Shown one piece after another: positions 17,360 through 37,050 of a stretch of DNA of 37,206 bases. Origin of the DNA: Ignavibacteriales bacterium (GTDB lineage: Bacteria; Bacteroidota; Ignavibacteria; T3Sed10-11). The stretch spans positions 1 through 37,206 of the forward strand of contig PWYR01000048.1 of the NCBI GenBank assembly GCA_003567775.1, read 5' to 3'. A program made the position numbers and the translations under genes. The notes under the pieces are model-generated. The model did no database searches. It had not been told where the DNA came from and worked only from the letters and a program-made list of their open reading frames with translations. Every line of letters starts with the position of its first letter. Position 1 is the stretch's first letter.

Positions 17360-17373
17360 TCATCGAAGGTCCT

Positions 17374-18225
17374 ATGTCCGCCGAAACTGCAAGCGTAATA
17401 ACAAAAAAAAGCCGTTCAAGTTTTTACTATTCTTTTAATCTTCTTCCCAGAGAACAGCGGGATGCCATTTATACCGTGTATGCATTTTGCAAGATGACGG
17501 ACGACATTGTCGATGAAAACGACGGAAGCATAGAGGTTAAGGAATTGCAGCTAACGAAGTGGCGCCGGGAACTGGAAAGATCTGTAAACGGGGGTTCGTC
17601 TTATCCGCTGCTCAATCAATTGAGCCGTACGGCTAAAAATTTTCAGATACCTGTCGAGCATTTCTCCGAACTGATTAAAGGCGTCGAAATGGATTTGAAT
17701 AAAAACCGGTATTCTACCTTTGACGAATTATATACCTATTGCTATCGCGTTGCTTCTACGGTCGGTTTAATGTGCGCCGAGATTTTCAGCTACACTAAAG
17801 AACATACTAAACAATATGCGGTCGATCTCGGTATTGCACTGCAGCTTACCAACATTATGCGGGATGTGAAGTCGGATCTTAAACTCGACCGTATTTATAT
17901 TCCACAGGAAGATATGAAGCGTTTCGATTACTCCGAAAAAGATTTACGGGAGCATATTTATGATGAACGTTTTATCGGTCTTATGCGGCGCCAGGCGGAG
18001 CGGGCACGATCGTTTTATTCGTCTGCCAACGATCATCTTGCCCGCGAAGATAGGAAACACTTTTTTGCCGCGCGCATTATGGAAAAGATTTACTATTCGA
18101 CCCTCCGGAAAATCGAACAAAATAATTTCAATGTATTCGGGAATAAAATCCGTATCAATCGCGCCCGCCAGCTTCTCATTGCATTACAGATATGGTTCAG
18201 TCACAGGGTATTGTCCGTTCGATGA
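17374..18225 (+). CDS. hpnD: Presqualene diphosphate synthase HpnD
   Basis: SRSSFYYSFNLLPREQRDAIYTVYAFCKMTDDIVDE, LQLTNIMRDVKSDLKLDRIYIP; likely ATG 17374 (MSAETAS) with GAAGG SD; track start GTG 17356. Confidence 0.92.
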   Translation: MSAETASVITKKSRSSFYYSFNLLPREQRDAIYTVYAFCKMTDDIVDENDGSIEVKELQLTKWRRELERSVNGGSSYPLLNQLSRTAKNFQIPVEHFSELIKGVEMDLNKNRYSTFDELYTYCYRVASTVGLMCAEIFSYTKEHTKQYAVDLGIALQLTNIMRDVKSDLKLDRIYIPQEDMKRFDYSEKDLREHIYDERFIGLMRRQAERARSFYSSANDHLAREDRKHFFAARIMEKIYYSTLRKIEQNNFNVFGNKIRINRARQLLIALQIWFSHRVLSVR

Positions 18226-19559
18226 AAAAAATTATCATCGTTGGCAGCGGATTTAGCGGACTTGCCGCTGCGGTTAAGCTCTCATCCGCCGGTTACGAAG
18301 TAACGGTTCTCGAACAGCGGTCCCGACCCGGTGGAAGAACGTACTCTTTCCGCGAAAATCAATCCGGCGATATTCTTGATAACGGCCAGCACATACTGCT
18401 TGATTGTTATACACATACTCTTACGTTTACAGCTATTATCGGGTCACAAGAGAATATTCATACGGAACCGGATTTGAATCTTACATTCGCCCATCCGAAG
18501 TGGGGCACGGCGAACCTGCACGTCTCGCGAAAAGTAAACCCACGCGCGGCATTGATCGGGGGACTTGCCGGGTATTCTTTTCTATCTTTCACCGACAGAC
18601 TCAAATTGCTGAAAATCGGGCATCAGCTTTATAACGCCGATGAAATGTATCTGAAAAAGATATCCCGCTTGACCGTAGAAGAATGGCTTCGCGAAACAAA
18701 ACAAAGTGAGAAGTTGAAAAAGTGTTTCTGGTATCCGCTTGCTATATCGGTTATGAATGAATCGACCACATTTGCATCGGCAGAGGTGTTCGTACGGACA
18801 ATGAAGATCGGCGTGTTCGGTGCGAAGGGACCTGCAAATATTATGACACCGCTTCGCGGATTGAGCGATGTATTTATTAATCCTGCGGTTAAATTTATTT
18901 TGAATAATGGAGGGCAAATCGATTTTCACAACCGGGTTGTGGGTTTACAGCAGGAGGGGAATGTTGTAAAAAGATTGTGGTTGCATGGGGGAGATGAAGT
19001 TACGGGCGATGCGTATATTCTTACGGGACAGCCGGTACACATCAATGCACTGCTCGAAGACGCCGGAATCCATTTTCCGAATAATACATCGTACGTTCCC
19101 ATCATTACCTCCAATATATGGTTCGATAAGGAGGTCGATATTCCTCTGCGTACTGGAATGATCGATACTGCATTTCACTGGGTTTTTAAAAAAGATCGTT
19201 CGTTTGCCGGTTCGGACGGGCCAGGTTATGTATCGCTTGTTATGAGCGGGGCGCGCGATTATGCCGGGATGGATCAGGAGAAGTTAACGAATCTCGCTTT
19301 GGAGGAACTTCGAGCTTGTTTTCCATCTCTGCGGGATGCGAATGTCAAATATTCGCGTGTTATAAAGGAACGACGGGCAACGGTATCGATAACACCCGAG
19401 TTTCAAAAACAACGTCCGGGAAACAAAACAATGTTTAAGAATTTATTAATAGCAGGCGACTGGACGCAAACACAATTGCCGGCAACAATCGAGGGAGCGA
19501 TAATGAGTGGATTTGCTGCAGCGGAGATGGTAATGGATGTGGTTACAAAAAAACATTGA
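18222..19559 (+). CDS. hpnE: Hydroxysqualene dehydroxylase HpnE (FAD-dependent amine-oxidase family)
   Basis: Rossmann KKIIIVGSGFSGLAAAVKLSSAGYEVTVLEQRSRPGGRTYSF; C-terminal LLIAGDWTQTQLPATIEGAIMSG; ATGA overlap with hpnD. Confidence 0.92.
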   Translation: MKKIIIVGSGFSGLAAAVKLSSAGYEVTVLEQRSRPGGRTYSFRENQSGDILDNGQHILLDCYTHTLTFTAIIGSQENIHTEPDLNLTFAHPKWGTANLHVSRKVNPRAALIGGLAGYSFLSFTDRLKLLKIGHQLYNADEMYLKKISRLTVEEWLRETKQSEKLKKCFWYPLAISVMNESTTFASAEVFVRTMKIGVFGAKGPANIMTPLRGLSDVFINPAVKFILNNGGQIDFHNRVVGLQQEGNVVKRLWLHGGDEVTGDAYILTGQPVHINALLEDAGIHFPNNTSYVPIITSNIWFDKEVDIPLRTGMIDTAFHWVFKKDRSFAGSDGPGYVSLVMSGARDYAGMDQEKLTNLALEELRACFPSLRDANVKYSRVIKERRATVSITPEFQKQRPGNKTMFKNLLIAGDWTQTQLPATIEGAIMSGFAAAEMVMDVVTKKH

Positions 19560-19646: not shown

Positions 19647-20657
19647 TCAACAAATCCTCGGCAACTGCTCGCCCGCCAGCATATCCACTACTCGATTCCC
19701 GCCGATCGATGTTTTAAGCAACACGTATCCGTAATGGTCATCAACCACTTCACCGATAACGCGTGCTTCTTTTCCCTGTGGATTTTTGTGCATCGCTATT
19801 ACAATGTCTTCTGCTTCATCGGCGGGAACGACGGCTAATAATTTCCCTTCGTTTGCAACGTAAAGCGGATCGAGTCCGAGAATCTCGCACGCAGCTTTAA
19901 CGGTTTCTGAAACAGGTATGTCTGATTCGTTGAGTGCGATGCCTTTCTTTGATGTTTGCGCTAATTCATTGAGTGAGCTTGACAAACCGCCGCGGGTGGG
20001 ATCGCGCATCCAGCGGATGTTTTTACTGACGGTCAACATGTCCTGAACAAGATGATTTAACGGCGCCGTGTCGCTCGTTATTGCGGTTTCAAATTCTAAT
20101 CCTTCCCGGATTGACATGATGGCGATGCCGTGTTCACCGATTGGACCGTTAACGATAATTTTGTCTCCCGGTTGAACACGTCCCGGGTGCATCTCTATTC
20201 CTTCGTCGATTACACCGATCCCCGACGTGTTTATGAAAATTTTATCCCCTTTTCCTTTTTCAACGACTTTTGTGTCGCCGGTAACAAGCTGAACACCGGC
20301 GCGTTCACAGGCATTCTTCATATCCGAAACAACACGTTCGAGTTCATCCATCGGCATACCCTCTTCGAGGATGACGCCTGCGCTGATATATAAAGGGCGG
20401 GCGCCGCCGACGGCAAGGTCGTTCACAGTGCCGTGCACTGCAACATCGCCGATACTGCCTCCCGGAAAAAAAATAGGATTAACAACATACGAGTCGGTTG
20501 TAAATGCTATACGCGTCCCGTTAATATTCATAACCGCCTGGTCGCCAAGCGGCGCGAGAAATTCATTGGTAAATGCAGGTAAAAACATCTTGCTGATAAG
20601 TTCGGCTGAGAGCTTCCCTCCGCTGCCGTGACCGAGTAAAATTTTGGTTTTATTCAT
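19647..20657 (-). CDS. hypE: Hydrogenase maturation protein HypE (carbamoyl dehydratase)
   Basis: ILLGHGSGGKLSAELI, FTTDSYVVNPIFFPGGSIGDVAVHGTVNDLAVGGA, MRDPTRGGL, C-terminal PRIC. Confidence 0.97.
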   Translation of the reverse strand: MNKTKILLGHGSGGKLSAELISKMFLPAFTNEFLAPLGDQAVMNINGTRIAFTTDSYVVNPIFFPGGSIGDVAVHGTVNDLAVGGARPLYISAGVILEEGMPMDELERVVSDMKNACERAGVQLVTGDTKVVEKGKGDKIFINTSGIGVIDEGIEMHPGRVQPGDKIIVNGPIGEHGIAIMSIREGLEFETAITSDTAPLNHLVQDMLTVSKNIRWMRDPTRGGLSSSLNELAQTSKKGIALNESDIPVSETVKAACEILGLDPLYVANEGKLLAVVPADEAEDIVIAMHKNPQGKEARVIGEVVDDHYGYVLLKTSIGGNRVVDMLAGEQLPRIC

Positions 20658-20662
20658 ACGGG

Positions 20663-21766
20663 CTATCCAACTCCCTGACGATACCGTCCATAATTATAAT
20701 ACGCAGCACACGCTCCTTCGGACGAAACCATTGTTGCGCCGAGCGGCGTCATTGGAGTGCATTCTTTACCGAATGCCGGGCACTCGTGCGGTTTTTTTAC
20801 ACCTTGCAGTACAAGGCCGCTGATACAGATCTCGGATTCTTGTGAGTGAATGTTCGAAATCCCCGGGAATACTTCTTCTGCGTCATAGGCGGCGAATTCA
20901 TCTTTTAGCATGTACCCGCTGTTGGGAACGATCCCGATCCCGCGCCAGGCACGATCGCCTATTTTAAAGACTTTAAAAATAGTCTCCTGAGCGGGAATAT
21001 TTCCTTCCCGGGTTACCGCGCGGGTGTATTGGTTTTCCACTTCGTATCTGCCTTCTTCGAGCTGTTTGATCAGCATATAAATTCCCTGCAATAAGTCGAG
21101 CGGCTCGAAACCGGTGACTACCATCGGAACCTGGTATTGCTTCGCCATTGGCTCATAATCTTTGTATCCCATTACCGCACACACATGTCCGGCGGCAACG
21201 AATCCCTGTACGCTGTTAAACGGTGAGTCGAGCACCGCTTCCATTGCAGGAGGAACGAGGACGTGTGAAACCAATATTGAAAAGTTATTCAGCCCGAGTT
21301 GTTTTGCTTGCCAGACTGCCATTGCATTGGCGGGAGCTGTGGTTTCAAAACCGACCGCAAAGAAGACCACTTTTTTATCGGGATGTTTTTGTGCGAGTTT
21401 TACGGCATCGAGCGGAGAATAGACGATGCGGACATTACCACCGTCTGCTTTTACGGAGAATAGATCTTTATGTGAACCGGGAACCCGCAGCATATCGCCG
21501 AATGATGTAAAAATAACATCCGGTTGTGATGCAATCTCAAGCGCTTTATCGATCATTTCAAGCGGCGTCACACAAACAGGACAGCCCGGTCCGTGGATCA
21601 GGGTTATGTTTTCCGGCAGCAGTTGGTCGATGCCGGTTTTAACGATTGTGTGCGTTTGTCCGCCGCACACTTCCATAATCGCCCACTTTTTGGTCGTGAT
21701 TTTGTGGATTTTCCGGGCTTCTTTTTTGATCAAGTCGGCGTCGCGATATTCGTCTATATATTTCAT
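20663..21766 (-). CDS. hypD: Hydrogenase maturation protein HypD
   Basis: [41 protein letters not shown]; true start [12 protein letters not shown] at 21766, overlapping hypC by ATGA. Confidence 0.97.
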
Positions 21767-22020
21767 TCCACATCCTCTCCGCCAAGTTCTTCGCCTAACG
21801 CTCCGATTTGTTTCAGATATGAGAGCGTTTCCATAGCTTCTTCCTCGTTGAGTTTGCTGATGCCAAAGCCGACATGAACCACCGTATAATCCCCGACCCG
21901 ACAATCGGGAATATATTCGAGACAAACCGATTTTACCACACCGCCAAAATCGACTTTCCCCATCTTTAGTCCGTTCTCTTCGTATGTTTCGGTTATTTTA
22001 CCTGGAATACCTAAGCACAT
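21763..22020 (-). CDS. hypC: Hydrogenase maturation chaperone HypC
   Basis: [10 protein letters not shown]-terminus (ATG 22020) with the Cys-2 motif; [21 protein letters not shown]. Confidence 0.96.
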
Positions 22021-22161
22021 AGTTTCTCCGTTTTTTGTTATGTGTTTTGAGTTTGCAGCTTTCAGTTTCAAGCTTTAGCGTAATGTAATGTATATCTACA
22101 ACCGTACACTGCAAACAGTAAACAGTAAACTGTAAATAAAAAACTATTGACCATTCACTAA

Positions 22162-24447
22162 TTAACTATTAACTGCTTTATTCATCGCAACAACCGCCTG
22201 TCCCAACGAAAGCCCGCCGTCATTCGGCGGTACACGGGAGTGTGTGTGTACATTCATACCGCGTTGCGACAACAGCGCAACTGATTTCTCGAGCAATAGT
22301 ACATTTTGAAAGACACCTCCGCTTAGTATAACATCTTGCAATCCTGTTTCTTTTCCGACTCGTTCCGACGTATCGGAAATAATCAAAGCCATCGTATTAT
22401 GGAATTTCTGAGAGATTGCTGATACCGGGATTTCCTGCTGAAGATCATCCACGATATTTTTTACTATTCCCTGCCATTTGATTTTCCAGGGAGTTGCGGC
22501 TGTATCAATGTCATAATCATAATACATTGATATATGCTCATCGGCAAGCATTTGTAACTCGATCGCTGCTTGCGCTTCGTAGTTTATAGTTTGTTTGATT
22601 CCACAAAGTGCGGCAATTCCATCAAACAACCTGCCGGCGGCAGAAGTAACCGGTGTATTCAGTTTCTGTCGGATCATTTTTTCAATAACCGGCAATGCAT
22701 TCATTGTCTGTAATGATCTAATAAAGGGAATATCAATATTTATATAGTCGTTTCCAAAAGTGTTATAGAGCAGGGAGAATGCGATTCGCCAGGGTTCTCT
22801 TATTGCTTGCTCTCCCCCTGCGAGCGGGATATGGTCGAAATGAGCAATGCGATTGTATCCGGCCGGAGTTGCTGTCATAATCTCGCCGCCCCAGATTGTT
22901 CCGTCTGGCCCGTATCCGGTTCCGTCAAATGATACTCCAATAACTTCACCGGATAAATTGTTTTCAGCCATACAACTTACAATGTGTGCGTGATGATGCT
23001 GTACCGGTATTTTTAGGGGGATATCGCTTTCGATAGCGTATTTTGTAGATAAGTACTCCGGGTGCATATCATATGCGAGAACTTCCGGAGTAATGTTAAA
23101 TAAATTTTTAAAGTGTTCGATGCCTTCGGTAAACGATCGTAGTGTTTCGTAATTTTCGAGATCGCCGATGTGATGACTTAGAAAAGCAAATTCATTCTTC
23201 ATATAACAGAACGTATTTTTTAGGTGTCCGCCGACGGCGATAACCGGTTGTTTTGTGTGAATATTCAATTTTACGGGATAAGGGACATAGCCGCGTGAAC
23301 GGCGCAGCATTGTTTGCCGGTTGTTCAGGACCGCACCGACGCTGTCGTCGCAGCGCATGTGAATGTCTCGATTATGAACGAGAAAATAGTCTGCTATCGT
23401 ACTCAGCCGTTCGAATGCATCCCGATCTTTATATGCTATCGGTTCTTCGCTGATGTTAGCGCTCGTCATAACTAATGGCATAGCCGCATCGTTGAGCAGA
23501 ATGTGATGAAGCGGCGTGTATGGAAGCATTACTCCTAAATATTTATTGTTTGGGGCAACTTCATTGCCTACCGGAGAATTATCTTTTCTACGAACAAGAA
23601 CGATGGGGCGATTGATCGATTGGATGAATGATATCTCCTGCCGATTTGGTTCGCATAGTCGATCGAGCCAGGTGATATCCGGTATCATTATGGCAAATGG
23701 TTTTTCGATGCGTCTTTTTCGTTTGCGTAATTGTCCAACCGCTTCATTGTTTGTTGCATCGCACGCAAGATGGTAGCCGCCGAGTCCTTTAAGGGCAATT
23801 ATCTTCCCGGCTTTGAGTAGTGTAGTTGTATGACGAACTACATCATCGGCAACGACTATGTTTTGATGGATGTCTGATAAAGTTACCGTCGGTCCGCACA
23901 CGGGACAGGCATTCGGTTGTGCGTGAAATCTGCGATTTGCCGGATCGTTATATTCCCGTTTGCAATCGGAGCACATCGGAAAGATCGACATCGTGGTATT
24001 CGGACGATCATAAGGGATATCCTGTATGATAGTAAATCGAGGTCCGCAGTTCGTACAATTAATAAAAGGATACCTATAGCGACGATCGTTCGGATCGAAT
24101 AACTCGTGTAGACAATCATCGCACACGGCTACGTCGGGGGAGATGAGGGTGAAGCGTTCATCGCTGCCGTTGCTCGCTTTAATGATAAAATCATTGAATC
24201 CTTTGTAATCGATCTCTTGCGATTCTACTTTATCTATCAGTGCAAGGGGAGGGGATGATCGGTTGATTGCATGAATGAATAATTGCATGGATGTGTGATC
24301 GCCTTCCGCTTCAATCTCTACGCCGTGTGCATTATTGCTGACCGTTCCCCTGAGTCCGTATTGTTGTGCTAACCGGTAAATAAACGGTCTGAATCCAACC
24401 CCCTGAACGATTCCCTTTACTATGATCTTTTTTGCAAGCATTTTCAT
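22162..24447 (-). CDS. hypF: Carbamoyltransferase HypF
   Basis: Acylphosphatase domain VKGIVQGVGFRPFIYRLA, zinc fingers CDDCLHEL..CTNCGPRFTI and CSDCKREY..CPVCGP, YrdC domain, C-terminal GGVFQNVLLLEK; start near MKMLAKK (24447) or MLAKK (24441). Confidence 0.96.
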   Translation of the reverse strand: MKMLAKKIIVKGIVQGVGFRPFIYRLAQQYGLRGTVSNNAHGVEIEAEGDHTSMQLFIHAINRSSPPLALIDKVESQEIDYKGFNDFIIKASNGSDERFTLISPDVAVCDDCLHELFDPNDRRYRYPFINCTNCGPRFTIIQDIPYDRPNTTMSIFPMCSDCKREYNDPANRRFHAQPNACPVCGPTVTLSDIHQNIVVADDVVRHTTTLLKAGKIIALKGLGGYHLACDATNNEAVGQLRKRKRRIEKPFAIMIPDITWLDRLCEPNRQEISFIQSINRPIVLVRRKDNSPVGNEVAPNNKYLGVMLPYTPLHHILLNDAAMPLVMTSANISEEPIAYKDRDAFERLSTIADYFLVHNRDIHMRCDDSVGAVLNNRQTMLRRSRGYVPYPVKLNIHTKQPVIAVGGHLKNTFCYMKNEFAFLSHHIGDLENYETLRSFTEGIEHFKNLFNITPEVLAYDMHPEYLSTKYAIESDIPLKIPVQHHHAHIVSCMAENNLSGEVIGVSFDGTGYGPDGTIWGGEIMTATPAGYNRIAHFDHIPLAGGEQAIREPWRIAFSLLYNTFGNDYINIDIPFIRSLQTMNALPVIEKMIRQKLNTPVTSAAGRLFDGIAALCGIKQTINYEAQAAIELQMLADEHISMYYDYDIDTAATPWKIKWQGIVKNIVDDLQQEIPVSAISQKFHNTMALIISDTSERVGKETGLQDVILSGGVFQNVLLLEKSVALLSQRGMNVHTHSRVPPNDGGLSLGQAVVAMNKAVNS

Positions 24448-24477
24448 AAACTCAAAACTCAAAACACGCAACACATT

Positions 24478-25128
24478 TCATTTAACCACGTGCGACTCCA
24501 GCCACGAACACCACTCATCAATTCCTTCACCCGTTGTGCACGATGTCTCAAATATTTTGAGCGACGGATTGATCTGTAATGCATTCTTTTTTAGTGTCTC
24601 GACATTGCAATTCAAATACGGAACAAGATCAATCTTGTTAATTATTAAAACCGATGAGTTCCTGAACATATTCGGATACTTGACCGGTTTGTCGTCTCCT
24701 TCCGTAGTGCTGACAACGACCACTTTGTGTGCTTCTCCCAGATCGTAATTCGCCGGACAGACGAGGTTACCGACATTTTCAATTACGAGTAATTGTGTCT
24801 TATCGAGATCGACATTCTCAAGCGCATCACGGACGAGCCGCGCTTCGAGGTGGCACCCGCCGTTAGTAACGATCTGCACAGCGGGCACATCGAGAGCGGA
24901 TATACGGCGCGCGTCGTTATCGGTCTGAACGTCGCCCTCAATGACGGAGATAATCAGCTTTCCTTTTAAACGTTCGATTGTACGTTCGAGAATGCTTGTT
25001 TTTCCCGAACCGGGTGAACTGACCACATTGATGGTAAAAACTTTGTTGGCATCGAAATCATCGCGGTTTTTCTGTGCGATTTGATCGTTCTTCTCAAGAA
25101 CTTTTCGTTCGATAGTGATAACGCTCAT
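24478..25128 (-). CDS. hypB: Hydrogenase nickel incorporation GTPase HypB
   Basis: VVSSPGSGKTS P-loop, EGDVQTDNDA, TNGGCHLEA, INKIDL; no His-rich N-terminal stretch. Confidence 0.96.
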   Translation of the reverse strand: MSVITIERKVLEKNDQIAQKNRDDFDANKVFTINVVSSPGSGKTSILERTIERLKGKLIISVIEGDVQTDNDARRISALDVPAVQIVTNGGCHLEARLVRDALENVDLDKTQLLVIENVGNLVCPANYDLGEAHKVVVVSTTEGDDKPVKYPNMFRNSSVLIINKIDLVPYLNCNVETLKKNALQINPSLKIFETSCTTGEGIDEWCSWLESHVVK

Positions 25129-25490
25129 AAATTCTCCTTTGGTGAATCATCAATTTCAATTTCGGTTACCTGCAACTCAGTCCCCGATAATATTTTTACA
25201 TTTGCATTGGTACATTCCGGACAAATAAAGAATGGATCGTCGATTTCGAAATCCTTTTTGCATTGGCCGCAGTGTATAACGAGCGATGTAAATTCCATTT
25301 GCAGGACAGCTTTTTCCATACCGGGCGTTTCGGCAGCGAGTACCTGAAAGCCGAATTCCAGGGAGTCAGGTACTATTCCAGCCATCTTACCGATTTTAAT
25401 TGCAACACTCTGTACAGAATGTGAATTCTCTTCCGGCAAATGCTGCGAAACAATGTCGATTATATTTTGTGCTACGGACATTTCGTGCAT
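25125..25490 (-). CDS. hypA: Hydrogenase nickel incorporation/maturation factor HypA
   Basis: MHEMSVAQNIIDIV N-terminus, two zinc-site CXXC motifs (CGQC, CPEC). Confidence 0.95.
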   Translation of the reverse strand: MHEMSVAQNIIDIVSQHLPEENSHSVQSVAIKIGKMAGIVPDSLEFGFQVLAAETPGMEKAVLQMEFTSLVIHCGQCKKDFEIDDPFFICPECTNANVKILSGTELQVTEIEIDDSPKENL

Positions 25491-25889: not shown

Positions 25890-27863
25890 TCACTCATCTC
25901 CATTTAACACCTGAATCGCCTTATCAACCGACTTATGATCGCCGACAAGAACATACGTATCGTGGGCGGTGATCTTCTCGGATGGAGACGGACTTGTGAT
26001 GGTGTTGCCATTCCGTACAATAGCAATAATGGTTGCGTCCGTACGGGCGCGGAGGTTTAGTTCACTAAGCGTTTGTCCGATATGCGGGTTGTCTTCCTCG
26101 ACATAATATTTCTCCGTTATGCCTGCTGCAAGAATCTCATCAATATGCGTGAGCGAGCTTATCCCCGAACCCTCCTTGACCATCATCTGATACGATTCGC
26201 TCCGTAGGATTGCCATCTGCTGCATAATGACGTTGACCGGTATGTGATAGTTTTCGAGCACTTTGCGGAATATCTGTAATGATGTTTCAAACTCCTCGGG
26301 GATCACTACATTTGCACCGAGCCGTTTTAATTCTTCTATATTGCTTATATCTCTGGTGCGGACTATCGTAAATATATTCGGATTGATGCGGTTGGCAAGC
26401 CGAAGTCCCATTGCAGTTGCACCCGGATCTGAAATCGCAAATACTATACAGCGGGCGCTTTCAATGTGAGCCAGTTCAAGCGTCTCGCGTCTCGTGACAT
26501 CCCCGAATATTACATTCTCCTTTTTTCCGATAAGCCGGTTCACCATCTCGGGATTGAGTTCGATGATGAAATACGGTATTCCTGTCTCTTTCAGCACGCG
26601 GGTTATGTTTTGACCATTCAACCCGTATCCGACGACAATAACATGATGTTTCAATTTCTTGTCGGTTGTGTCGCTCCGTGTGGCGACGGATGCAATTTGC
26701 ATTCTGCTCACTTTTGTTGCGAGCACCGGTGCTACATGCATAAGAAACGGAGTTAACATCATCGTAAAGATAGATGAAGCAAGAAAGGCGTGATAGTATT
26801 CGGTTGTCAGTACATTGTTTACGAGACCGACCGATGCAAGGACAAACGAGAACTCTCCGATCTGCGCCAGACTTAATCCGGTAATGAGAGCAGTACGCAT
26901 CGGAAATTTCATAAACCGTATGACCGCTACTACGATGCCGCACTTTATAATGACAATCCCGATAATCAACGAAATAATCTCTACCGGAACATCAAGCATA
27001 AGCTGAACGTTGAGCAACAAACCTATTGAGACAAAGAAAACACTGATAAATGCATCTTTCAGCGGGATAATATCCGCAAACACCTGATGGCTGTATTCGG
27101 ATTCGGATATCATTAATCCGGCTATAAATGCGCCGAGTGCGAATGAAAGACCCATTGATTCGGTAAGATATGCCGTACCTAAAATCAACAAAAATGTTCC
27201 GATGGTGAAAACTTCCCGAATACGCAGCCGGTCCATAAAATAGATAATTTTTGGAATGAAATAGCGGGCAAGTATGACTATCACGGTAACGGCGAATAGG
27301 GCTACAATTATCTGCAAGCCAATCATTTCTATACGTACTTCATCGGCAATGCCGAGGAGTGGAACAAATAATATCATCGGGACGATCGCAATGTCTTGAA
27401 AAATCAGCATACCGACTGCAATTCTGCCGTGCGGCGCTTCGGCTTCTTTTTTCTCATCGAGGAGTTTGAGAACGATTGCTGTACTTGATAAGCTCAGGAG
27501 CATCCCGAAGAATATGCTCTGATTAAGAGGTATCCCGATGAGATAAAAGAATAACCCGGTAATAAGAATTGTCAACCCTACTTGCAGTCCCCCGGCAATG
27601 ATCAACATGCGTTTCATCTGGATTAATCTCTGAAGCGATATTTCGAGACCGATCGTAAAAAGCAGCAGGACTACCCCGATCTCGGCAAGGATTTCTATAT
27701 GTTCCAATTCGGTGATTAACCTGAAACCGAACGGACCGATGAGAACACCGGCGAGCAGAAATCCCGCAATGCTGGGTATCTTGAATTTATTTAAAATATA
27801 TACGATCGGGACGGATACAAGTAGAATTATGACAACGTCCCTGATTATCGGATATTCCTGCAA
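25890..27863 (-). CDS. Monovalent cation:proton antiporter, CPA2 family (KefB-like, with TrkA-N and TrkA-C domains), copy 1
   Basis: About 12 TM Na+/H+ exchanger domain; HHVIVVGYGLNGQNITRVL TrkA-N Rossmann; C-terminal RCK_C-like domain; TTG start. Confidence 0.9.
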   Translation of the reverse strand: MQEYPIIRDVVIILLVSVPIVYILNKFKIPSIAGFLLAGVLIGPFGFRLITELEHIEILAEIGVVLLLFTIGLEISLQRLIQMKRMLIIAGGLQVGLTILITGLFFYLIGIPLNQSIFFGMLLSLSSTAIVLKLLDEKKEAEAPHGRIAVGMLIFQDIAIVPMILFVPLLGIADEVRIEMIGLQIIVALFAVTVIVILARYFIPKIIYFMDRLRIREVFTIGTFLLILGTAYLTESMGLSFALGAFIAGLMISESEYSHQVFADIIPLKDAFISVFFVSIGLLLNVQLMLDVPVEIISLIIGIVIIKCGIVVAVIRFMKFPMRTALITGLSLAQIGEFSFVLASVGLVNNVLTTEYYHAFLASSIFTMMLTPFLMHVAPVLATKVSRMQIASVATRSDTTDKKLKHHVIVVGYGLNGQNITRVLKETGIPYFIIELNPEMVNRLIGKKENVIFGDVTRRETLELAHIESARCIVFAISDPGATAMGLRLANRINPNIFTIVRTRDISNIEELKRLGANVVIPEEFETSLQIFRKVLENYHIPVNVIMQQMAILRSESYQMMVKEGSGISSLTHIDEILAAGITEKYYVEEDNPHIGQTLSELNLRARTDATIIAIVRNGNTITSPSPSEKITAHDTYVLVGDHKSVDKAIQVLNGDE

Positions 27864-27872
27864 TGAATCACC

Positions 27873-29861
27873 TTATTGTGCTAATTGTATTTCACCGTTT
27901 AAAAATTGTATAGCTTCATCGACTGATTTATGATCGCCGACAAGGACTAACGTGTCATGTCCCCGGATTTTTTCATTCGGAGACGGATTGGGTATTGCTT
28001 TACCGTTCCGCACGATGGCAATTATGGTTGCGCCGGTTTTTGCACGTATATCCAGTTCGCTTATTGTTTCTCCAACGTGCGGGTTATCATCGACGACGAA
28101 ATAGGTTTCGGTTATACCCGCAGCAAGGATCTCATTCAGCCTCGAGAATTGCCGTTCGTGTGTTCCCTCTTTTCGCAATAACTGATACGCTTCGTTACGA
28201 ACGATCGCAATTTGCTTCATTATTACGTTGAGCGGAATATGATATGTCTCGAGAACTTTACTGAAAATCTGTAGTGATGTTTCAAATTCTTCGGGAATGA
28301 TCTCATCGGCGCCAAGCTTTCTGAATTCATCGACGTCGTCAAGTTCACGCAATCGAACAACAGCAAAAATGGACGGATTGCTTTTCTTTGCGAGGATAAG
28401 TCCCAGCTTAGTTGCATGGATATCAGCCATTGCAAAAACGATGCACTGTGCGGTCGCAATACTTGCCTGCTCTAAAATTTCCGGTTTGGTAACGTCTCCG
28501 AATATAACCAATTCATCCTTTTTTCTTAATTCGCTCACCATCTTGGGGTCCATATCTATTATCACGTACGGTATGCCCGTTTCCTTCAATACTCGGGCGA
28601 GGTTTTGTCCGTTCAGTCCGTAGCCGACGATGATAACGTGGTGCTTAATTACCGTATCGATGGGCCCGGTATGTTCCGTAACCGACTCCCTGAACGATAT
28701 GGTGAATTTGTCAATAATCAGAGGAACAAAATATGTAAGCACCGGTACAAGCACCAGAGTAAAAATAGAGGCAGCAAGAAATGCATTATATAATTCGGAA
28801 TCTATGATCCCATAATCCAATCCGACTAATGCAAGAACAAATGAGAATTCGCCTATCTGTCCGAGTAGCAACCCTGCTATCAATCCTGTTCTGAATGGGT
28901 ATCTGAAGGCGAGAAGAGGTAAAATGATAATAGAACTTTTTATAACAATAACGGCTAATACGATTATTGTAAATAAACCGAAATTTGCAAAAACGATGTC
29001 GAGATTCAGTAGTAGCCCGATTGCTATAAAGAAAAGACTATTAAATATATCCCTGAGAGGAATTGCATCGGCAAATACCTGGCGGTTAAATTCCGATTCC
29101 GAGAGAATGATGCCGGTGATAAATGCGCCAAGCGCAAGCGAAACGCCTGCAAGATTAGTAAGGTATGCAGTTCCGAATAGTAGCAACATTATTCCAATCG
29201 TGAACCCTTCGCGTACACGGGCTGCTGCGAGGTAATAAACAATCTTTGGCATCAGATAACGGGCGACGACGACGATCACTCCAACACTACCAAATGATAT
29301 AATAATTCTTTGTATTACTTCTCCGGAAGTGACATCATCTCCGGTAGCTGCGAGCACCGGAATGAGAAGCATCATGGGAACGCCCGCCAGATCCTGAAAA
29401 ATCGTGACACCGGCAGCGAGCCGTCCATGCTGAGAATCGACTTCTTTATTATCGGATAGGAACTTAAGTACAACCGCCGTACTCGAACCGGCGCCGAGCA
29501 TACCGAAGAATAAACTCTGAATAATGGGTAAGCCCGCAAGATGCAATAATAGCATAAAAATAATGAGCGTAAATCCGACCTGAATGCTGCCGGTAATGAG
29601 CAGGATCCTTCCAATCTGCATCAGGCGCTCTATGGAAAGCTCCAGACCGATCGTGAACAGAAGTAGAACAACTCCGAAGGTGGCGAGCATCTCAATTGTT
29701 TCGATATCGGCAATCAATTTGAAGCCGGACGGACCGATAATCATTCCCGCGATGAGAAACCCGACTATACTGGGTATACGAATCCTGTTGAAAAGAAATA
29801 CAATAGGTATTGATACAATAAGGATTATGATGATTTCACGTATAAAACCGATATCAGTCAA
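27873..29861 (-). CDS. Monovalent cation:proton antiporter, CPA2 family (KefB-like, with TrkA-N and TrkA-C domains), copy 2
   Basis: Same architecture and colinear motifs as the adjacent ORF (HHVIIVGYGLNGQNLARVLKETGIPYVIID); TTG start. Confidence 0.9.
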   Translation of the reverse strand: MTDIGFIREIIIILIVSIPIVFLFNRIRIPSIVGFLIAGMIIGPSGFKLIADIETIEMLATFGVVLLLFTIGLELSIERLMQIGRILLITGSIQVGFTLIIFMLLLHLAGLPIIQSLFFGMLGAGSSTAVVLKFLSDNKEVDSQHGRLAAGVTIFQDLAGVPMMLLIPVLAATGDDVTSGEVIQRIIISFGSVGVIVVVARYLMPKIVYYLAAARVREGFTIGIMLLLFGTAYLTNLAGVSLALGAFITGIILSESEFNRQVFADAIPLRDIFNSLFFIAIGLLLNLDIVFANFGLFTIIVLAVIVIKSSIIILPLLAFRYPFRTGLIAGLLLGQIGEFSFVLALVGLDYGIIDSELYNAFLAASIFTLVLVPVLTYFVPLIIDKFTISFRESVTEHTGPIDTVIKHHVIIVGYGLNGQNLARVLKETGIPYVIIDMDPKMVSELRKKDELVIFGDVTKPEILEQASIATAQCIVFAMADIHATKLGLILAKKSNPSIFAVVRLRELDDVDEFRKLGADEIIPEEFETSLQIFSKVLETYHIPLNVIMKQIAIVRNEAYQLLRKEGTHERQFSRLNEILAAGITETYFVVDDNPHVGETISELDIRAKTGATIIAIVRNGKAIPNPSPNEKIRGHDTLVLVGDHKSVDEAIQFLNGEIQLAQ

Positions 29862-30048: not shown

Positions 30049-31611
30049 ATGACTTTTAAAACAGGCAGCCATCTCCCCTCAATACTTGTTACCGGAGCCT
30101 CGGGTTTTATAGGCCGTAATTTTCTTGAAGCTGCAAAAAATAATTTTAAAATCTACGCGCTGTCGCGGTCAATAACCGATCGGTCGTCAATTGTAAAGCA
30201 TCCGAACATCGAGTGGATCGATGCAGATATCGGCAATTTTTTTTACCTGCACAGTGCTCTCTCCGAGCTTCGCCTGCGAGGTGGCGTTGATTATATTCTC
30301 CATTTAGCAAGCTTTTATGATTTTAATTATGATGATAACCCGGAATATATTCGTACGAACCTTGTAGGTACGAAAAATATTCTGGAAGAAGCGCGCCGTC
30401 TCGATATCAAACGGTTTATATTTGCAAGCTCCCTTGCTGCATGCGAATTTACAAAGGGACACGTTATCAATGAAGAATCGCCGGCAAATGCAAATTTTTC
30501 GTATGCCCGAACGAAGCGCGAGGGTGAGGAAATGGTTAAATCGTATTCCGGTGAGTTTCACTGTGCAATCACCCGATTCGCCGCTGCTTTCAGTGATTGG
30601 TGTGAGTACGGTCCGTTATACGTTTTTTTAAACACATGGTTGACGCGCAACTGGAAATCAAGAATTCTCGGCGGCAAGGGGCAATCGGCTATTACTTATT
30701 TACACGTTAATTGTTTGGTTCGTTTTCTTCTACGGATCATATCAGTTACTCAATATTTACCTCGCGTCGGGACCTTCATTGCCAGTCCCAATAATCCGGT
30801 CAGCCATCTTGAGCTATTCGATCTTGCAACCCGTTATTATTTCGGAAAATCATTCAATCCTATCTTTATGCCAAAACCGGCGGCGGCAATGGGAGTTTAT
30901 GGAATGGACATTCTTGGTAAGATTACCGGTAAAAAGCCGTTCGAACGACCGTGGATGATGCGATACGTAGATAAGCAACTGCGTGTTGATAGTTGGCAAA
31001 CACGAAAAACCCTCGAATGGGAACCGATTGAGCGCTACAAAATCTCAAGGCGATTGTTATTTATTGTTGAACGTATGAAGAGTAATCCCTATGAATGGCA
31101 CAAACGCAACACGAGGATGTTAAAGACGCATCCGGTTAGATCGAATTTTCTCATATATGAAGCGCTCGATATGATCAGAGAAAATGCTGTTAATAAGGTG
31201 ATGGAATATCTATTAAGTGATGATAATAAAGATATGTTTTCGAATTATCGTTTGCTTCATCATTCTACATTGAGGAAAGATCTTACTGCTATTTATCAAT
31301 TTCTATCTTCGTCTATCCGCGGGCATGACAGGATTTCAATGCTTGCGTATGCACGACAGCTTGCGTATGTCCGTACCCGTCAGGGATTTCCGTTTGGAGA
31401 AGTACGCGATGCAATCTCTGCCCTGGGAAGAATCATACATGAAGAATTATTAACCGTACCGTTACTTGAAGGTATGGATCAATTTATTTACGATGAAGTC
31501 TCGCTTACTTTTCAATTAATGGTTGACGAGCTTGAAGACAGTTACGAGGATGCGGAAAAAGAACTCGAGATCGGCTCCTCCACGTTGTACGCATCCCGCG
31601 ACGAAGATTAA
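30049..31611 (+). CDS. NAD(P)-dependent epimerase/dehydratase (extended SDR) with additional C-terminal helical domain of about 160 aa
   Basis: GASGFIG nucleotide-binding motif, SYARTKREGE (YxxxK), then a non-SDR helical C-terminus from about residue 360. Confidence 0.85.
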   Translation: MTFKTGSHLPSILVTGASGFIGRNFLEAAKNNFKIYALSRSITDRSSIVKHPNIEWIDADIGNFFYLHSALSELRLRGGVDYILHLASFYDFNYDDNPEYIRTNLVGTKNILEEARRLDIKRFIFASSLAACEFTKGHVINEESPANANFSYARTKREGEEMVKSYSGEFHCAITRFAAAFSDWCEYGPLYVFLNTWLTRNWKSRILGGKGQSAITYLHVNCLVRFLLRIISVTQYLPRVGTFIASPNNPVSHLELFDLATRYYFGKSFNPIFMPKPAAAMGVYGMDILGKITGKKPFERPWMMRYVDKQLRVDSWQTRKTLEWEPIERYKISRRLLFIVERMKSNPYEWHKRNTRMLKTHPVRSNFLIYEALDMIRENAVNKVMEYLLSDDNKDMFSNYRLLHHSTLRKDLTAIYQFLSSSIRGHDRISMLAYARQLAYVRTRQGFPFGEVRDAISALGRIIHEELLTVPLLEGMDQFIYDEVSLTFQLMVDELEDSYEDAEKELEIGSSTLYASRDED

Positions 31612-31699: not shown

Positions 31700-31715
31700 T
31701 GGCACAATGCTTGCC
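31700..31715 (+). promoter_or_regulatory. Candidate sigma-54 (RpoN) -24/-12 promoter for the hydrogenase operon
   Basis: TGGCACAATGCTTGCC versus consensus TGGCACRNNNNTTGCW: matches all defined positions except the last W; 75 bp upstream of the large-subunit ATG. Confidence 0.6.
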
Positions 31716-31789: not shown

Positions 31790-33349
31790 ATGGCTAAAAT
31801 CACCGTTGATCCTTTAAACAGGGTTGAGGGTCATCTAAAAATTGAAGCTGTTGTGGAAAACGGCGTCGTCAAGGAGGCGCGAAGCGCCGGAACAATGTGG
31901 CGCGGGTTCGAAAATATTTTGAAGAACCGTAATCCGCTTGATGCACAGCGTATAACTCAGCGAATATGCGGTGTGTGTCCGATTGCTCATACAATGGCAT
32001 CGACCTTAAATCTTGATGAGGCGTTTGGTATTGCGAATCGCATCCCTGAAAACGGTCGGATCATCCGCAATTTAATATTGGGTTCAAATTTTCTGCAATC
32101 CCACATTCTTCATTTCTATGCACTCGCAGCTCTCGATTTTGTAGATGTAACCGCAGCGGCGGACTATGCCGGTAGTGATAGACATCTTCAACAAGTACAG
32201 TCCTTCATCAAACGCGGATCACTCTATCCGTTTTTCCCGAGATATGAAGGAGATTATCGTTTAAGAAAAAATGAGAACGTACAGGCAGTAAAACATTATG
32301 CAGGGTCGCTCGATATCCGCCGTTTAGCACACGAAATGCTCGCAATTTGGGGAGGCAACATGCCGCAAAGTGTTGCAATCGTACCCGGCGGCGTGACGGA
32401 AAATCCGACGGTTTCGAAAATTGCAGATTTTCGCTTCCGGTTAAAAAAGATAAGTCACTTTATAGAAAATTCCTATATCCCGGATGTGTTAATGGTCGCA
32501 TCGCGTTATCCGGATTATTTCGAGATCGGCGATGGATTAAAAGAATATTTATCATACGGATGTTTCGAGCTTGACAGCGAACCCGATCTTATTAAACGGA
32601 AAAGATTATTCTCAAGCGGAAGAATTACGCTCCGTGATCTGAATAAATTGCCGCTTGATCCGCAAAAAATAACTGAAGATGTGACGCACTCATGGTATAA
32701 ACAAAACGGTGCATTGCATCCGTCGGTTGGAGTCACGGATCCGGATCACAAGAAGGAGGGAGCGTATACCTGGCTGAAAGCACCGCGTTATGACGGAAAA
32801 CCGTATGAGGTTGGTCCGCTCGCACGGCAGGTTATAGCATACGTTGACGGTTACGAGCCGACAGTATCTATGGTCAACGCGGTGCTTGGTCAATTCAATG
32901 CTTCACCTGCGGTTCTGGGATCGACGCTCGGCAGGCACGCTGCACGTGCTATTGAGACAAAGATCGTTGCCGATCGTATGGCTGAGTGGGTGCTTGAATT
33001 GAAACCGGGTGAACCTGTTCATACTCATTTTGAGATTCCTGAATCGGCAACGGGTTACGGTATAACCGAAGCTCCCCGCGGAGGTGTCGGTCACTGGATA
33101 TCGATTAAGAATTATAAAACCGATAATTATCAGGCGGTGGTGCCGACCACATGGAACGGTTCACCGAGAGACGAAAACAATGTGCCGGGACCAATCGAAC
33201 AGGCGCTTGAAGGGACACCGGTGCGTGATGAGAAAAATCCGTTTGAGTTAGTGCGTATCGTCCGCTCGTTCGATCCGTGCCTTGCCTGTGCAGTCCACGT
33301 GGTGACGCCGAAAGGTAACGAGATAACACGATTCGTGGTCGAGGGATAA
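31790..33349 (+). CDS. hybC: [NiFe]-hydrogenase large subunit, group 1 (HybC-like)
   Basis: L1 motif RICGVCPIAH, L2 motif DPCLACAVH followed by a cleavable C-terminal VVTPKGNEITRFVVEG; SD TGGAGG. Confidence 0.97.
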   Translation: MAKITVDPLNRVEGHLKIEAVVENGVVKEARSAGTMWRGFENILKNRNPLDAQRITQRICGVCPIAHTMASTLNLDEAFGIANRIPENGRIIRNLILGSNFLQSHILHFYALAALDFVDVTAAADYAGSDRHLQQVQSFIKRGSLYPFFPRYEGDYRLRKNENVQAVKHYAGSLDIRRLAHEMLAIWGGNMPQSVAIVPGGVTENPTVSKIADFRFRLKKISHFIENSYIPDVLMVASRYPDYFEIGDGLKEYLSYGCFELDSEPDLIKRKRLFSSGRITLRDLNKLPLDPQKITEDVTHSWYKQNGALHPSVGVTDPDHKKEGAYTWLKAPRYDGKPYEVGPLARQVIAYVDGYEPTVSMVNAVLGQFNASPAVLGSTLGRHAARAIETKIVADRMAEWVLELKPGEPVHTHFEIPESATGYGITEAPRGGVGHWISIKNYKTDNYQAVVPTTWNGSPRDENNVPGPIEQALEGTPVRDEKNPFELVRIVRSFDPCLACAVHVVTPKGNEITRFVVEG

Positions 33350-33350
33350 T

Positions 33351-33854
33351 ATGTGGGCAGATTTATATAATAAAAAACCAATTCTCGTCGTCGGTGTCGG
33401 TAATCTCATACAGCGTGATGATGGTTTCGGCGTTCATGCCGTTCGAGCATTAGCCGGTCAAGTTTTGCCCGATAATGTGGATCTGTTCGACGGGGGCTCG
33501 CTCGGTCCGGAAATGCTTCCGTGGTTGGAAGGACGGAGAAAGATCGTGTTTATAGATGCAGTCAACGCCGGTATGGCGCCGGGGACGCTATTCCGGTTTG
33601 AACCGCAGGATTTACAATACCACATGGAAGAGAAGACGTCGATTCATCAAATAGGGTTGATCGATACTCTGTCGATGGCGGAACTGATGGGTGACATACC
33701 GGATGAGGTTGTGATCATCGGAGTACAGCCGAAGGTAATCGACTGGGGAGAGGATTTATCCCCCGAATTAGAAAACGTTGTTCCAAAAGCGATTAATCTT
33801 GTGAAAAAAGAAATTCTTAAAAATACTACCATATTGGAGGAACAAAATGAGTGA
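33351..33854 (+). CDS. hybD: Hydrogenase maturation protease (HybD/HyaD family)
   Basis: VVGVGNLIQRDDGFGVHAV, DLFDGGSLGPEMLPWLE, FIDAVNAGMAPGTLFRF, SIHQIGLIDTL. Confidence 0.95.
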   Translation: MWADLYNKKPILVVGVGNLIQRDDGFGVHAVRALAGQVLPDNVDLFDGGSLGPEMLPWLEGRRKIVFIDAVNAGMAPGTLFRFEPQDLQYHMEEKTSIHQIGLIDTLSMAELMGDIPDEVVIIGVQPKVIDWGEDLSPELENVVPKAINLVKKEILKNTTILEEQNE

Positions 33855-34977
33855 ACAAAAACAATGGTCTCGCAGACAAATACTCTCCTTGTTTGCGAAA
33901 GGTTCCGGTATACTTATGGGAGCAAGCTTGTTTCAGATACCCGGTTTCACGAAACTCTTTGCAGAGGCGGTTGATGAAATACCGGTGCTGTTCTTACAGG
34001 GCGGTAGTTGCACCGGGTGTTCGGTTTCGCTGCTGAATTCGGTCAGCCCGACCATTCAGGATGTACTGCTCGGACAGATACTTCCCGGAACATCGTTGAG
34101 TGTCTTATGGCATTCAAATGTCTCGGCTGCACAGGGACATCAGGTTATGGAAATACTGGACGACGTGAAAAGTCGCCCGAAAGGTAGTTTCGTTCTTGTG
34201 ATGGAAGGAACGATACAAACGAAAGACGACGGAATCTACTGCGAGTTCGGTGAGCGCGACGGTAAACATTATACTATGTACGAGCACCTGCTCGAACTTG
34301 CACCGAATGCGATGGCAATTATTTCGATGGGTACTTGCGCCGCATTTGGCGGTATTCCGGCAGCCCCGCCTAACCCGACCGGAAGTAAGTCGGTGAAAGC
34401 CGTACTCGATGAGCACGGAATCGATACACCTGTTGTCAACGTACCCGGCTGTCCGCCGCATCCCGATTGGGTTGTCGGTACGATCGCAACGGTATTAATC
34501 GGTGGACTCGGCGCCGTTGATGTCGATCAACACGGGCGACCGAAAGCATTTTACGGTACGTTAATTCATGACAATTGTCCGTTACGAGGACATTTCGATG
34601 CAGGCAAATTTGCGCGGGATTTCGGTGAAAAAGGTTGCCTGTATGAACTCGGCTGTAAAGGACCGGTAACACATAGTGATTGTCCCACCCGAAAATGGAA
34701 CAACGGCGTGAACTGGATTATTGGCGCCGGGCATCCATGTATGGGATGCGTCGAACCGTTCTTCCCCCACGGCGATAATATTTTTGAGCGTGTTCCGATT
34801 CATTTCGCAACTGCGCCCGCAACGTATCCGCCAATTGTGACGGATCGTCCATCGAAGGTCGATCCTGTAGTAACCGGTATACTGGGCGCTGCCGCCGGCG
34901 CCGCAGCAGGCGCAGCGGCTATGTCGAAAAAGAAAAAGAAACCGGATGAATCCACGGTAAAAGAAAAGGAGGAATAG
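33847..34977 (+). CDS. hybO: [NiFe]-hydrogenase small subunit, group 1 (HybO-like), Tat-exported
   Basis: Tat motif SRRQILSLF; proximal cluster GGSCTGCSVSLLN and MGTCAAFGG; PGCPPHPDW; HPCMGCVEPF; Ala/Gly-rich C-terminal tail. Confidence 0.96.
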   Translation: MSEQKQWSRRQILSLFAKGSGILMGASLFQIPGFTKLFAEAVDEIPVLFLQGGSCTGCSVSLLNSVSPTIQDVLLGQILPGTSLSVLWHSNVSAAQGHQVMEILDDVKSRPKGSFVLVMEGTIQTKDDGIYCEFGERDGKHYTMYEHLLELAPNAMAIISMGTCAAFGGIPAAPPNPTGSKSVKAVLDEHGIDTPVVNVPGCPPHPDWVVGTIATVLIGGLGAVDVDQHGRPKAFYGTLIHDNCPLRGHFDAGKFARDFGEKGCLYELGCKGPVTHSDCPTRKWNNGVNWIIGAGHPCMGCVEPFFPHGDNIFERVPIHFATAPATYPPIVTDRPSKVDPVVTGILGAAAGAAAGAAAMSKKKKKPDESTVKEKEE

Positions 34978-34980
34978 TCT

Positions 34981-35874
34981 ATGTCAGTCAACAGACGAAC
35001 ATTCCTCAAAACCACCGCAGCCGGCATTGGCGGCGGAGTGCTCGCAACGCAGCAAACGAAAGCCGCGAGACCGAGAAAAGCGCTTGATACCGACATCGCG
35101 ATGCTGAACGATTGCACAAAGTGCATCGGTTGCCGGGCGTGTCAATCCAGATGTAAAGAGACTCACGGACTTGAACGCGACGGAACAGATCTGCGCTATG
35201 ATATGCCGCTCGACCTCAGCGGCCGCAGTTTAACATTGATAAAAATGTATAAGAATGACGATTTCTTTACATTTGTGAAGAAACAATGTCTGCATTGCGG
35301 CGATCCTTCATGTGTATCTGTGTGTCCGGTATCGGCTTTCGAAAAATTAGATAACGGGATCGTGGCGTATAATAAGGATGCATGTATCGGATGCCGTTAC
35401 TGTATGATCGCCTGTCCGTGGGATGCACCGACATTTGAGTACGATAAAGCATTGCCGGTTATACAGAAATGCGACTTTTGCAAAGATGCACGGTTGGCAC
35501 ACGGGTTGGATCCGGCATGTGCCGATGCATGTCCGACCGGTGCGATTAAATACGGAAAACGCGGCGATCTTATACAAGAAGCCCACGAACTGATAAAAAA
35601 TAACCCCGAAAAATATAACGACCATGTATACGGAGAACACGAATTGGGCGGCACCTCAGTATTAGTGCTTGCGCCGAAAGAGGTTCGCTTTGAAGAGTTG
35701 GGATATAAGTTGTACGGGGACATTCCGCCGTTCAGGTTACAGGAAGATATTCAACACGGTATCTTTAAGTATTTCATACCGCCGGTGGCTTTGTATGCCG
35801 TTCTTGGAATGATTGCTTATGCAACCCGTCGTAAAGATAATGAGTCAACAAAAAACGATGATAAGAAAGGATAA
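34981..35874 (+). CDS. hybA: Hydrogenase-associated 4Fe-4S ferredoxin subunit (HybA-like), Tat-exported with C-terminal TM anchor
   Basis: NRRTFLKTTAAGIGGG Tat signal; four Cys clusters (CTKCIGCRACQSRC, CLHCGDPSCVSVCP, CIGCRYCMIACP, CDFCKDARLAHGLDPACADACP); TM near C-terminus. Confidence 0.93.
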   Translation: MSVNRRTFLKTTAAGIGGGVLATQQTKAARPRKALDTDIAMLNDCTKCIGCRACQSRCKETHGLERDGTDLRYDMPLDLSGRSLTLIKMYKNDDFFTFVKKQCLHCGDPSCVSVCPVSAFEKLDNGIVAYNKDACIGCRYCMIACPWDAPTFEYDKALPVIQKCDFCKDARLAHGLDPACADACPTGAIKYGKRGDLIQEAHELIKNNPEKYNDHVYGEHELGGTSVLVLAPKEVRFEELGYKLYGDIPPFRLQEDIQHGIFKYFIPPVALYAVLGMIAYATRRKDNESTKNDDKKG

Positions 35875-35877
35875 ACC

Positions 35878-37050
35878 ATGGAACATAAATGTGCTCCTAT
35901 GAATCAGCGATTGTGGACGCCATGGTTTACTGCCGGTGTCGCAATCATTGCTATTGGCGCTGCTATTCTTATATACCGTTTTATTGCAGGTTTGGGTGCT
36001 GTTACAAATCTCAACGATGGTTTTCCGTGGGGTCTGTGGATAGCATTCGATGTTGTGACTGGTGTCGCACTTGCAGCAGGAGGATTCACTATAGCTGCCC
36101 TTGTATATATATTTAATAAGTGGGAATATTCACCGCTTGTGCGTCCTGCTCTTTTAACGGCGCTTTTAGGATACGCGATCGCGGCTATTGCTATTGTTAT
36201 CGACGTCGGTCGATGGTGGCAAATTTATAATCCCGTATTGCCGCAATACTGGCAGGGGAACTCACCGTTGTTTGAAGTGGCGATTTGTGTGAAGATATAC
36301 CTTACCGTGATGATAATTGAATTCATACCGGCAGTTTCCGAGAAGTATAAAGACAGTCACAAACCGTTTTTCCGATCGTTAGCCAATAAACTCGGACCAT
36401 TTGTAAATAAATATTTAATTATTTTCATATTATTGGGCGTGGTTGTTTCGACGCTTCACCAATCATCGTTGGGTGCGGTGATGATCGCGGCAGTCGATAG
36501 AATACATCACTTATGGTGGAGTCCGTGGATGCCGTTAATGTTCTTGATTTCGGCTATCGCTGCCGGCTTTGCGGTAGTAACTGTTGAATCTTACATTGCC
36601 GCAAAGAGCTTTAAACGCAAACCTGAAAAAGATATGCTTGCCCGGCTTGCGGGTATTATTCCCTATGTTTTAGGCGCCTATTTGCTTCTGAAGTTGTACG
36701 ATCTTATTGCATACGGCAAGCTGCCGCTATTAATAGCAGATTGGTGGGGACTTATTTATATCGTAGAACTGTCAATCTTTGCTTTGATACCAATCTATAT
36801 GTTACGGAAAAAATCGGTGCGCTTTGACATCGGTAAACTGCTTAGCGTATCCGTATTGATGATTGCCGGCATTATACTGAATAGATTGAATACGTATTTG
36901 TTTACGTATCAGCCGAGGCCGGGGAGGACGTATTTCCCGACTCTTGAGGAAATAATCGTAACGGCGGCATTGATATCGTTATTGTTTGTCGGCTATAAGA
37001 TATTGGCGAATTTCTTCCCGGTGATACATGTAAGTACGGAAGAAAACTGA
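35878..37050 (+). CDS. hybB: NrfD/PsrC-family integral membrane quinone-interacting subunit (HybB-like)
   Basis: About 10 TM helices, FPWGLWIAFDVVTGVALAAGGF, VVSTLHQSSLGAVMI; follows the HybA-like gene. Confidence 0.93.
   Translation: MEHKCAPMNQRLWTPWFTAGVAIIAIGAAILIYRFIAGLGAVTNLNDGFPWGLWIAFDVVTGVALAAGGFTIAALVYIFNKWEYSPLVRPALLTALLGYAIAAIAIVIDVGRWWQIYNPVLPQYWQGNSPLFEVAICVKIYLTVMIIEFIPAVSEKYKDSHKPFFRSLANKLGPFVNKYLIIFILLGVVVSTLHQSSLGAVMIAAVDRIHHLWWSPWMPLMFLISAIAAGFAVVTVESYIAAKSFKRKPEKDMLARLAGIIPYVLGAYLLLKLYDLIAYGKLPLLIADWWGLIYIVELSIFALIPIYMLRKKSVRFDIGKLLSVSVLMIAGIILNRLNTYLFTYQPRPGRTYFPTLEEIIVTAALISLLFVGYKILANFFPVIHVSTEEN

Follow-up and report, generated by a model that had tools for sequence, protein, structure and literature searches.

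Why should an SDR enzyme carry a sensor-like helical domain at its C terminus, and why should the gene for it stand directly ahead of a [NiFe]-hydrogenase operon? The question is raised by a stretch of 37,206 nucleotides from an Ignavibacteriales bacterium, here called the window, in which an earlier note had described an epimerase fused to a domain resembling the RsbRD_N domain of stressosome proteins. The open reading frame and the protein sequence quoted in that note match the window exactly (Table 1). In an AlphaFold (AF2) model of the whole fusion (pLDDT 87), SDR secondary structure extends to about residue 345 and is followed by a linker and five long helices (residues 365–389, 405–425, 429–444, 449–468 and 477–515), in agreement with the claim that the SDR portion is complete by about residue 350 and the remainder all-helical. 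We place the boundary between SDR and tail at about residues 350–362 (window ~31100–31132).

Table 1. Features of the fusion gene and the adjoining hydrogenase operon, in window coordinates
Feature	Position	Strand	Basis
SDR/RsbRD_N-like fusion protein, 520 aa	30049..31611	+	ORF; full-length homologues in at least 4 groups
Extended-SDR (NAD-dependent epimerase/dehydratase) domain, residues ~10–345	30076..31083	+	Pfam, AF2 model, Foldseek, conservation (n = 60)
C-terminal globin-like, RsbRD_N-related helical domain, residues ~362–510	31132..31578	+	AF2, Foldseek, RsbRD_N profile, hhalign
Candidate sigma-54 (−24/−12) promoter of hydrogenase operon, TGGCACAATGCTTGCC	31700..31715	+	Consensus match only
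[NiFe]-hydrogenase large subunit	31790..33349	+	PF00374, E 5e-153; NF033181, 694 bits (cut-off 600)
Hydrogenase maturation protease	33351..33854	+	TIGR00072
Hydrogenase small subunit	33847..34977	+	TIGR00391
HybA-like ferredoxin subunit with Tat signal	34981..35874	+	NF008134 over cut-off; PF10518 weak
HybB-like NrfD-family quinone-site membrane subunit	35878..37050	+	PF03916; NF008133, 367 bits, under its cut-off

The SDR part is matched by PF01370 (Epimerase; Pfam) over residues 12–231 with an E value of 5.7e-26, and its nearest folds in the PDB are UDP-galactose 4-epimerases (Foldseek). It contains the TGxxGxxG motif (G16/G19/G22), the catalytic residues S128, Y152 and K156, and an invariant C185. 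Of 60 full-length homologues, 59 have the catalytic Ser, 59 the Tyr and all 60 the Lys, and the combination of TGxxGxxG and Y-x3-K with the serine, present in 59–60 of the 60, places the family among the extended SDRs; given this retention, the domain is probably catalytically active. The fusion shares the Rossmann fold and the Y-K-S catalytic set with the extended SDR epimerases UDP-galactose 4-epimerase and HpnA, but it falls far under all the NCBIfam equivalog cut-offs shown, has motifs of its own (DWCEY and FERPWMMRY) and carries the fused sensor domain. Two more specific identities were rejected: that of the hopanoid-associated epimerase HpnA, since TIGR03466 gives 61.7 bits against an equivalog cut-off of 367.65, and that of C132 and C185 as an invariant redox pair, since position 132 is Cys in just 33 of the 60 sequences.

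An AlphaFold model of the last 150 residues by themselves has a pLDDT of 92 and a pTM of 0.85. A sequence search of solved structures with the tail domain gave no meaningful match, and a fold search was therefore used. All 50 of the PDB matches listed by Foldseek for the isolated tail are phycobiliproteins, sensor globins or globins, including a cytoglobin (TM-score by query 0.54–0.70, E values 0.007–0.04, with no match under 0.001). The comparison with globin-coupled folds that had been suggested earlier thus points to a globin-like fold, with a TM-score of 0.70 (E = 0.02) to the globin-coupled sensor domain of BpeGReg (PDB 6m9a). The fusion resembles such sensors in overall fold and in its sensor-plus-output layout, but it is without their conserved haem histidine and its output is an SDR.

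RsbRD_N (PF14361) is known from sensor proteins. The window tail scores 17.6 bits against this model, under the Pfam gathering cut-off of 24.3, and the assignment to RsbRD_N therefore draws on family and fold. Indeed, isolated tails of homologues score 34.7 bits (L011, E = 3e-8) and 24.3 bits (L037), and the domain is detected in 7 of 15 homologues at E ≤ 1. A profile of the tail finds stand-alone proteins of ~135–185 aa in the same phylum, with E values down to 6e-14, and gives an hhalign probability of 97.7 (E = 1.9e-12) against nine of these stand-alone RsbRD_N-like proteins; of four such proteins tested against PF14361, one goes undetected and the others score 13.9–23.3 bits. A PF14361 search of the organism's own genome found none at E ≤ 0.001, a result for which the strictness of the model accounts. 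On these comparisons, and at superfamily rank, the tail can be placed with RsbRD_N. The resemblance to RsbRD_N proposed in the earlier note is therefore upheld at the level of family and fold: a globin-like fold is present, and the Pfam and NCBIfam models include none that treats the tail as an SDR extension, the two points on which the proposal could have failed. RsbRD_N of stressosome RsbRD proteins and its stand-alone relatives share a sequence profile and a globin-like helical fold with the tail; however, in RsbRD the domain forms the N terminus of a STAS protein, whereas in the fusion it forms the C terminus of an enzyme and ends in an additional long helix that extends past the 104 positions of the profile. 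At L051:1405-2430 there are two stand-alone RsbRD_N/HisK-N-like proteins in tandem, each of ~135 aa.

The tail has no invariant histidine over 60 sequences (in the best column 19 of the 60 have His, and the window has Tyr), which makes haem unlikely, and a haem-binding globin-coupled sensor, for want of a conserved proximal histidine, was ruled out. In its sequence the tail resembles a non-haem sensor, closer to the Bacillus RsbR non-haem globins than to the haem-binding Vibrio form. Crystals of a Bacillus RsbR-type non-haem globin contained a fatty acid, while the Vibrio form binds haem (PMC4976288), and a lipid is on this account the first candidate ligand of the tail. The description "stressosome-type" holds for the domain and not for the system: Pfam finds no STAS match in the fusion protein, and no RsbS or RsbT partner occurs among the annotated neighbours, so that by its own domains and these neighbours it does not qualify as a stressosome RsbR protein.

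The same fusion recurs across phyla. Full-length homologues occur in Ignavibacteria, Caldithrix (Calditrichota), Neomarinimicrobiota, Acidobacteriota and one further lineage, and in sampled surveys the fusion is present in 20 of 196 genomes of the window's class (Ignavibacteria), 11 of 40 of the Caldithrix phylum, 23 of 199 Neomarinimicrobiota and 12 of 199 Acidobacteriota. All 60 full-length homologues examined, from the four named groups, keep both the SDR and the tail. This retention, together with that of the catalytic residues, marks the fused pair as an old, stable unit whose active site is, as judged from sequence, apparently intact, and the constancy of the tail and the stand-alone proteins found by its profile place the domain beyond chance. 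Among the variants are a 653-aa version with apparently two copies of the C-terminal domain (L181:8971-10929), tandem duplicates in Neomarinimicrobiota (L177, L198 and L199), the second copies of which form a separate clade, and a fusion split into two ORFs between SDR and tail by a frame change or stop (L072:8714-10378), which is either an assembly error or a pseudogene.

The hydrogenase operon that adjoins the fusion, as the earlier note had claimed, runs from the large subunit through the HybB-like subunit, and its genes match the small and large subunits, HybA, HybB and maturation protease of the E. coli hydrogenase-2 (hyb) operon. On the opposite strand, 4–10 kb from the fusion, lie maturation genes for AIRS-type HypE, HypD, HypF, HypB-like and HypA proteins (19647-25490), and between these and the fusion are two tandem KefB-type Na+/H+ antiporters with TrkA domains (25890-29861). 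Two squalene/phytoene synthase-type genes and an amine-oxidase-type FAD gene, reminiscent of the hpnC-hpnD-hpnE squalene route, occupy 16466-19559.

The adjacency seen in the window stands; it was called unexpected, which is too weak a word for a linkage found again in several phyla. The fusion adjoins membrane-linked [NiFe]-hydrogenase genes in 23 of 55 fetched loci, either just before the large subunit (the window, L060, L061 and L197), just after the operon (L171, L173, L178, L196 and L199) or convergent to it (L164, L166, L169, L182, L183, L186 and others). The gap between fusion and large subunit is ~0.2–1.6 kb in 23 of 24 same-contig genomes and 4.8 kb in the remaining one. Co-occurrence with [NiFe]-hydrogenase, proposed earlier as a check, exceeds expectation in two phyla but not in the window's own class: the large subunit is present in 17 of 23 fusion genomes against 32 of 199 overall in Neomarinimicrobiota (Fisher p = 2e-11) and in 8 of 12 against 38 of 199 in Acidobacteriota (p = 2.5e-4), whereas Ignavibacteria show no excess (3 of 20 against 28 of 196; p = 0.57), all of these p values being indicative only, as they ignore relatedness and related sequences inflate co-occurrence statistics. 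Because of the Ignavibacteria result, the role of the fusion cannot be hydrogenase-only. HybA/HybB-type genes are present in every linked locus with enough sequence (in L061, where the contig stops short, HybA can still be seen) but missing from 15 of the 20 unlinked hydrogenases sampled; thus, the fusion accompanies HybA/HybB-type hydrogenases and not hydrogenases in general. In a tree of 82 large subunits, some placements in which are affected by long branches, the fusion-linked ones belong to two deep clades, both with HybA/HybB subunits, and the linkage state changes eight times. Among the fusion loci free of hydrogenase are clusters that encode NifX-like proteins, ferredoxin-domain ATPases of the MinD type, an octahaem-type cytochrome, ARMT1-like proteins and CGGC proteins, which is again an anaerobic redox setting.

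A second recurrent neighbour is a membrane protein of ~130 aa that we label TM4; it has four membrane helices as judged by eye and no Pfam match. Its gene lies near the fusion in 40 of the 55 loci; it mostly comes immediately before the fusion gene and often runs into the start of the SDR. The window's genus is an exception in that TM4 and the fusion are apart; the copy of the organism itself is on another contig (L285:7208-7696, G000:C138), directly after ftsZ, and TM4 is next to ftsZ in two relatives too. The E. coli hyb operon is not known to contain an SDR or TM4 gene. In the literature, searched among open-licence papers, neither this fusion nor RsbRD_N in company with an epimerase or a hydrogenase was described. 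What the present analysis adds is that the fusion has been kept in several phyla, together with a membrane partner and HybA/HybB-type hydrogenases.

The candidate sigma-54 site, 90 bp before the start of the large subunit, is the sole site in the 37 kb with at most one mismatch and GG/GC kept; two-mismatch sites number 10 against 12.4 expected, not above chance. Since it sits between the fusion and the large subunit, it weakly suggests that transcription of the hydrogenase operon need not include the fusion. The site recurs at the same place in the sister genome L060 and is absent from L061, and a sigma-54 promoter common to linked loci was rejected, as only the window and L060 have one before the hydrogenase among the linked loci tested. 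One further site precedes TM4 in L069, a locus not linked to hydrogenase, and sigma-54 activator genes lie near 11 of the 55 fusion loci.

The reading that we prefer, with a probability of roughly 40%, joins the two-domain architecture, its deep conservation, the intact catalytic residues, the globin-like fold and the recurrent linkage to TM4 and HybA/HybB hydrogenases: the fusion would be a sensor-gated NAD(P)-dependent SDR accessory of quinone-linked redox complexes in anaerobic metabolism, especially of HybA/HybB-type [NiFe]-hydrogenases. The protein would be an NAD(P)-dependent SDR enzyme that is soluble and probably located in the cytoplasm, and its C-terminal RsbRD_N-type non-haem globin domain may sense a small molecule (a lipid, a quinone-like compound or a redox-state signal) and, once ligand-bound, gate or position the catalytic domain. 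It could then act on a membrane-related substrate at the membrane, with the adjacent TM4 in most relatives, and so support quinone-linked redox complexes, the hydrogenase presumably among them. Against this reading stand the lack of excess co-occurrence in Ignavibacteria, the separation of TM4 from the fusion in the window's genus, and the hydrogenase's own candidate promoter, which leaves co-transcription with the fusion only putative.

Extended and atypical SDRs are also known as assembly or stability factors, such as NDUFA9 of complex I and Ycf39/HCF244 of photosystem II. By analogy, the fusion could be a largely non-catalytic, NAD(P)H-binding factor of this kind for membrane-bound redox complexes, its globin-like domain docking or dimerising and TM4 serving as anchor. 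Such a role would fit the closeness of the fusion gene to those for a membrane complex's structural subunits and maturation protease, as well as the gene for a small membrane partner. However, the Y/K/S set is preserved beyond the needs of a scaffold, and the fusion is also found where no hydrogenase is present; we regard this explanation as rather unlikely. It is unlikely that the protein is an ordinary lipid or sugar epimerase with a structural helical bundle, whose place beside hydrogenases is inherited gene order of no functional meaning. The best named relatives are indeed sugar-nucleotide epimerases and HpnA, squalene-synthesis-type genes lie 10–14 kb off in the window, and many fusion loci have no hydrogenase, but the linked genes vary in order and orientation, are found in four groups and involve two hydrogenase clades with many unlinked ones between, and drift would have scattered a merely inherited order. 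A signalling protein, in which the SDR senses NAD(P)H as NmrA-type regulators do, the tail contacts a partner and a sigma-54 activator output tunes hydrogenase expression, could draw on the occurrence of RsbRD_N in sensor proteins, the activator genes near some loci and the site in the window and L060, but it is improbable given the intact catalytic residues, the lack of a STAS, kinase or receiver domain in the fusion, the majority of loci without a nearby activator and the lack of a sigma-54 site in the other linked loci tested.

Returning to the sensor-gated enzyme, a bolder form of this reading, which we hold to be rather unlikely, is that SDR, non-haem sensor globin and TM4 form a new and widely conserved accessory module that senses a lipid of the membrane or some signal linked to quinones and enzymatically tunes quinone-reactive HybA/HybB complexes, with the hydrogenase as one client of several. 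Globin-type sensor domains usually serve as input to signalling outputs such as cyclases, kinases and STAS domains. If the preferred reading is true, a conserved fusion that joins such a sensor to an enzyme of metabolism would be a rare instance of metabolism gated directly by a sensor. Its repeated siting beside one specific type of hydrogenase, and with TM4, makes it a testable candidate for a so far unrecognised part of anaerobic respiration on H2 in several phyla with few cultured members.
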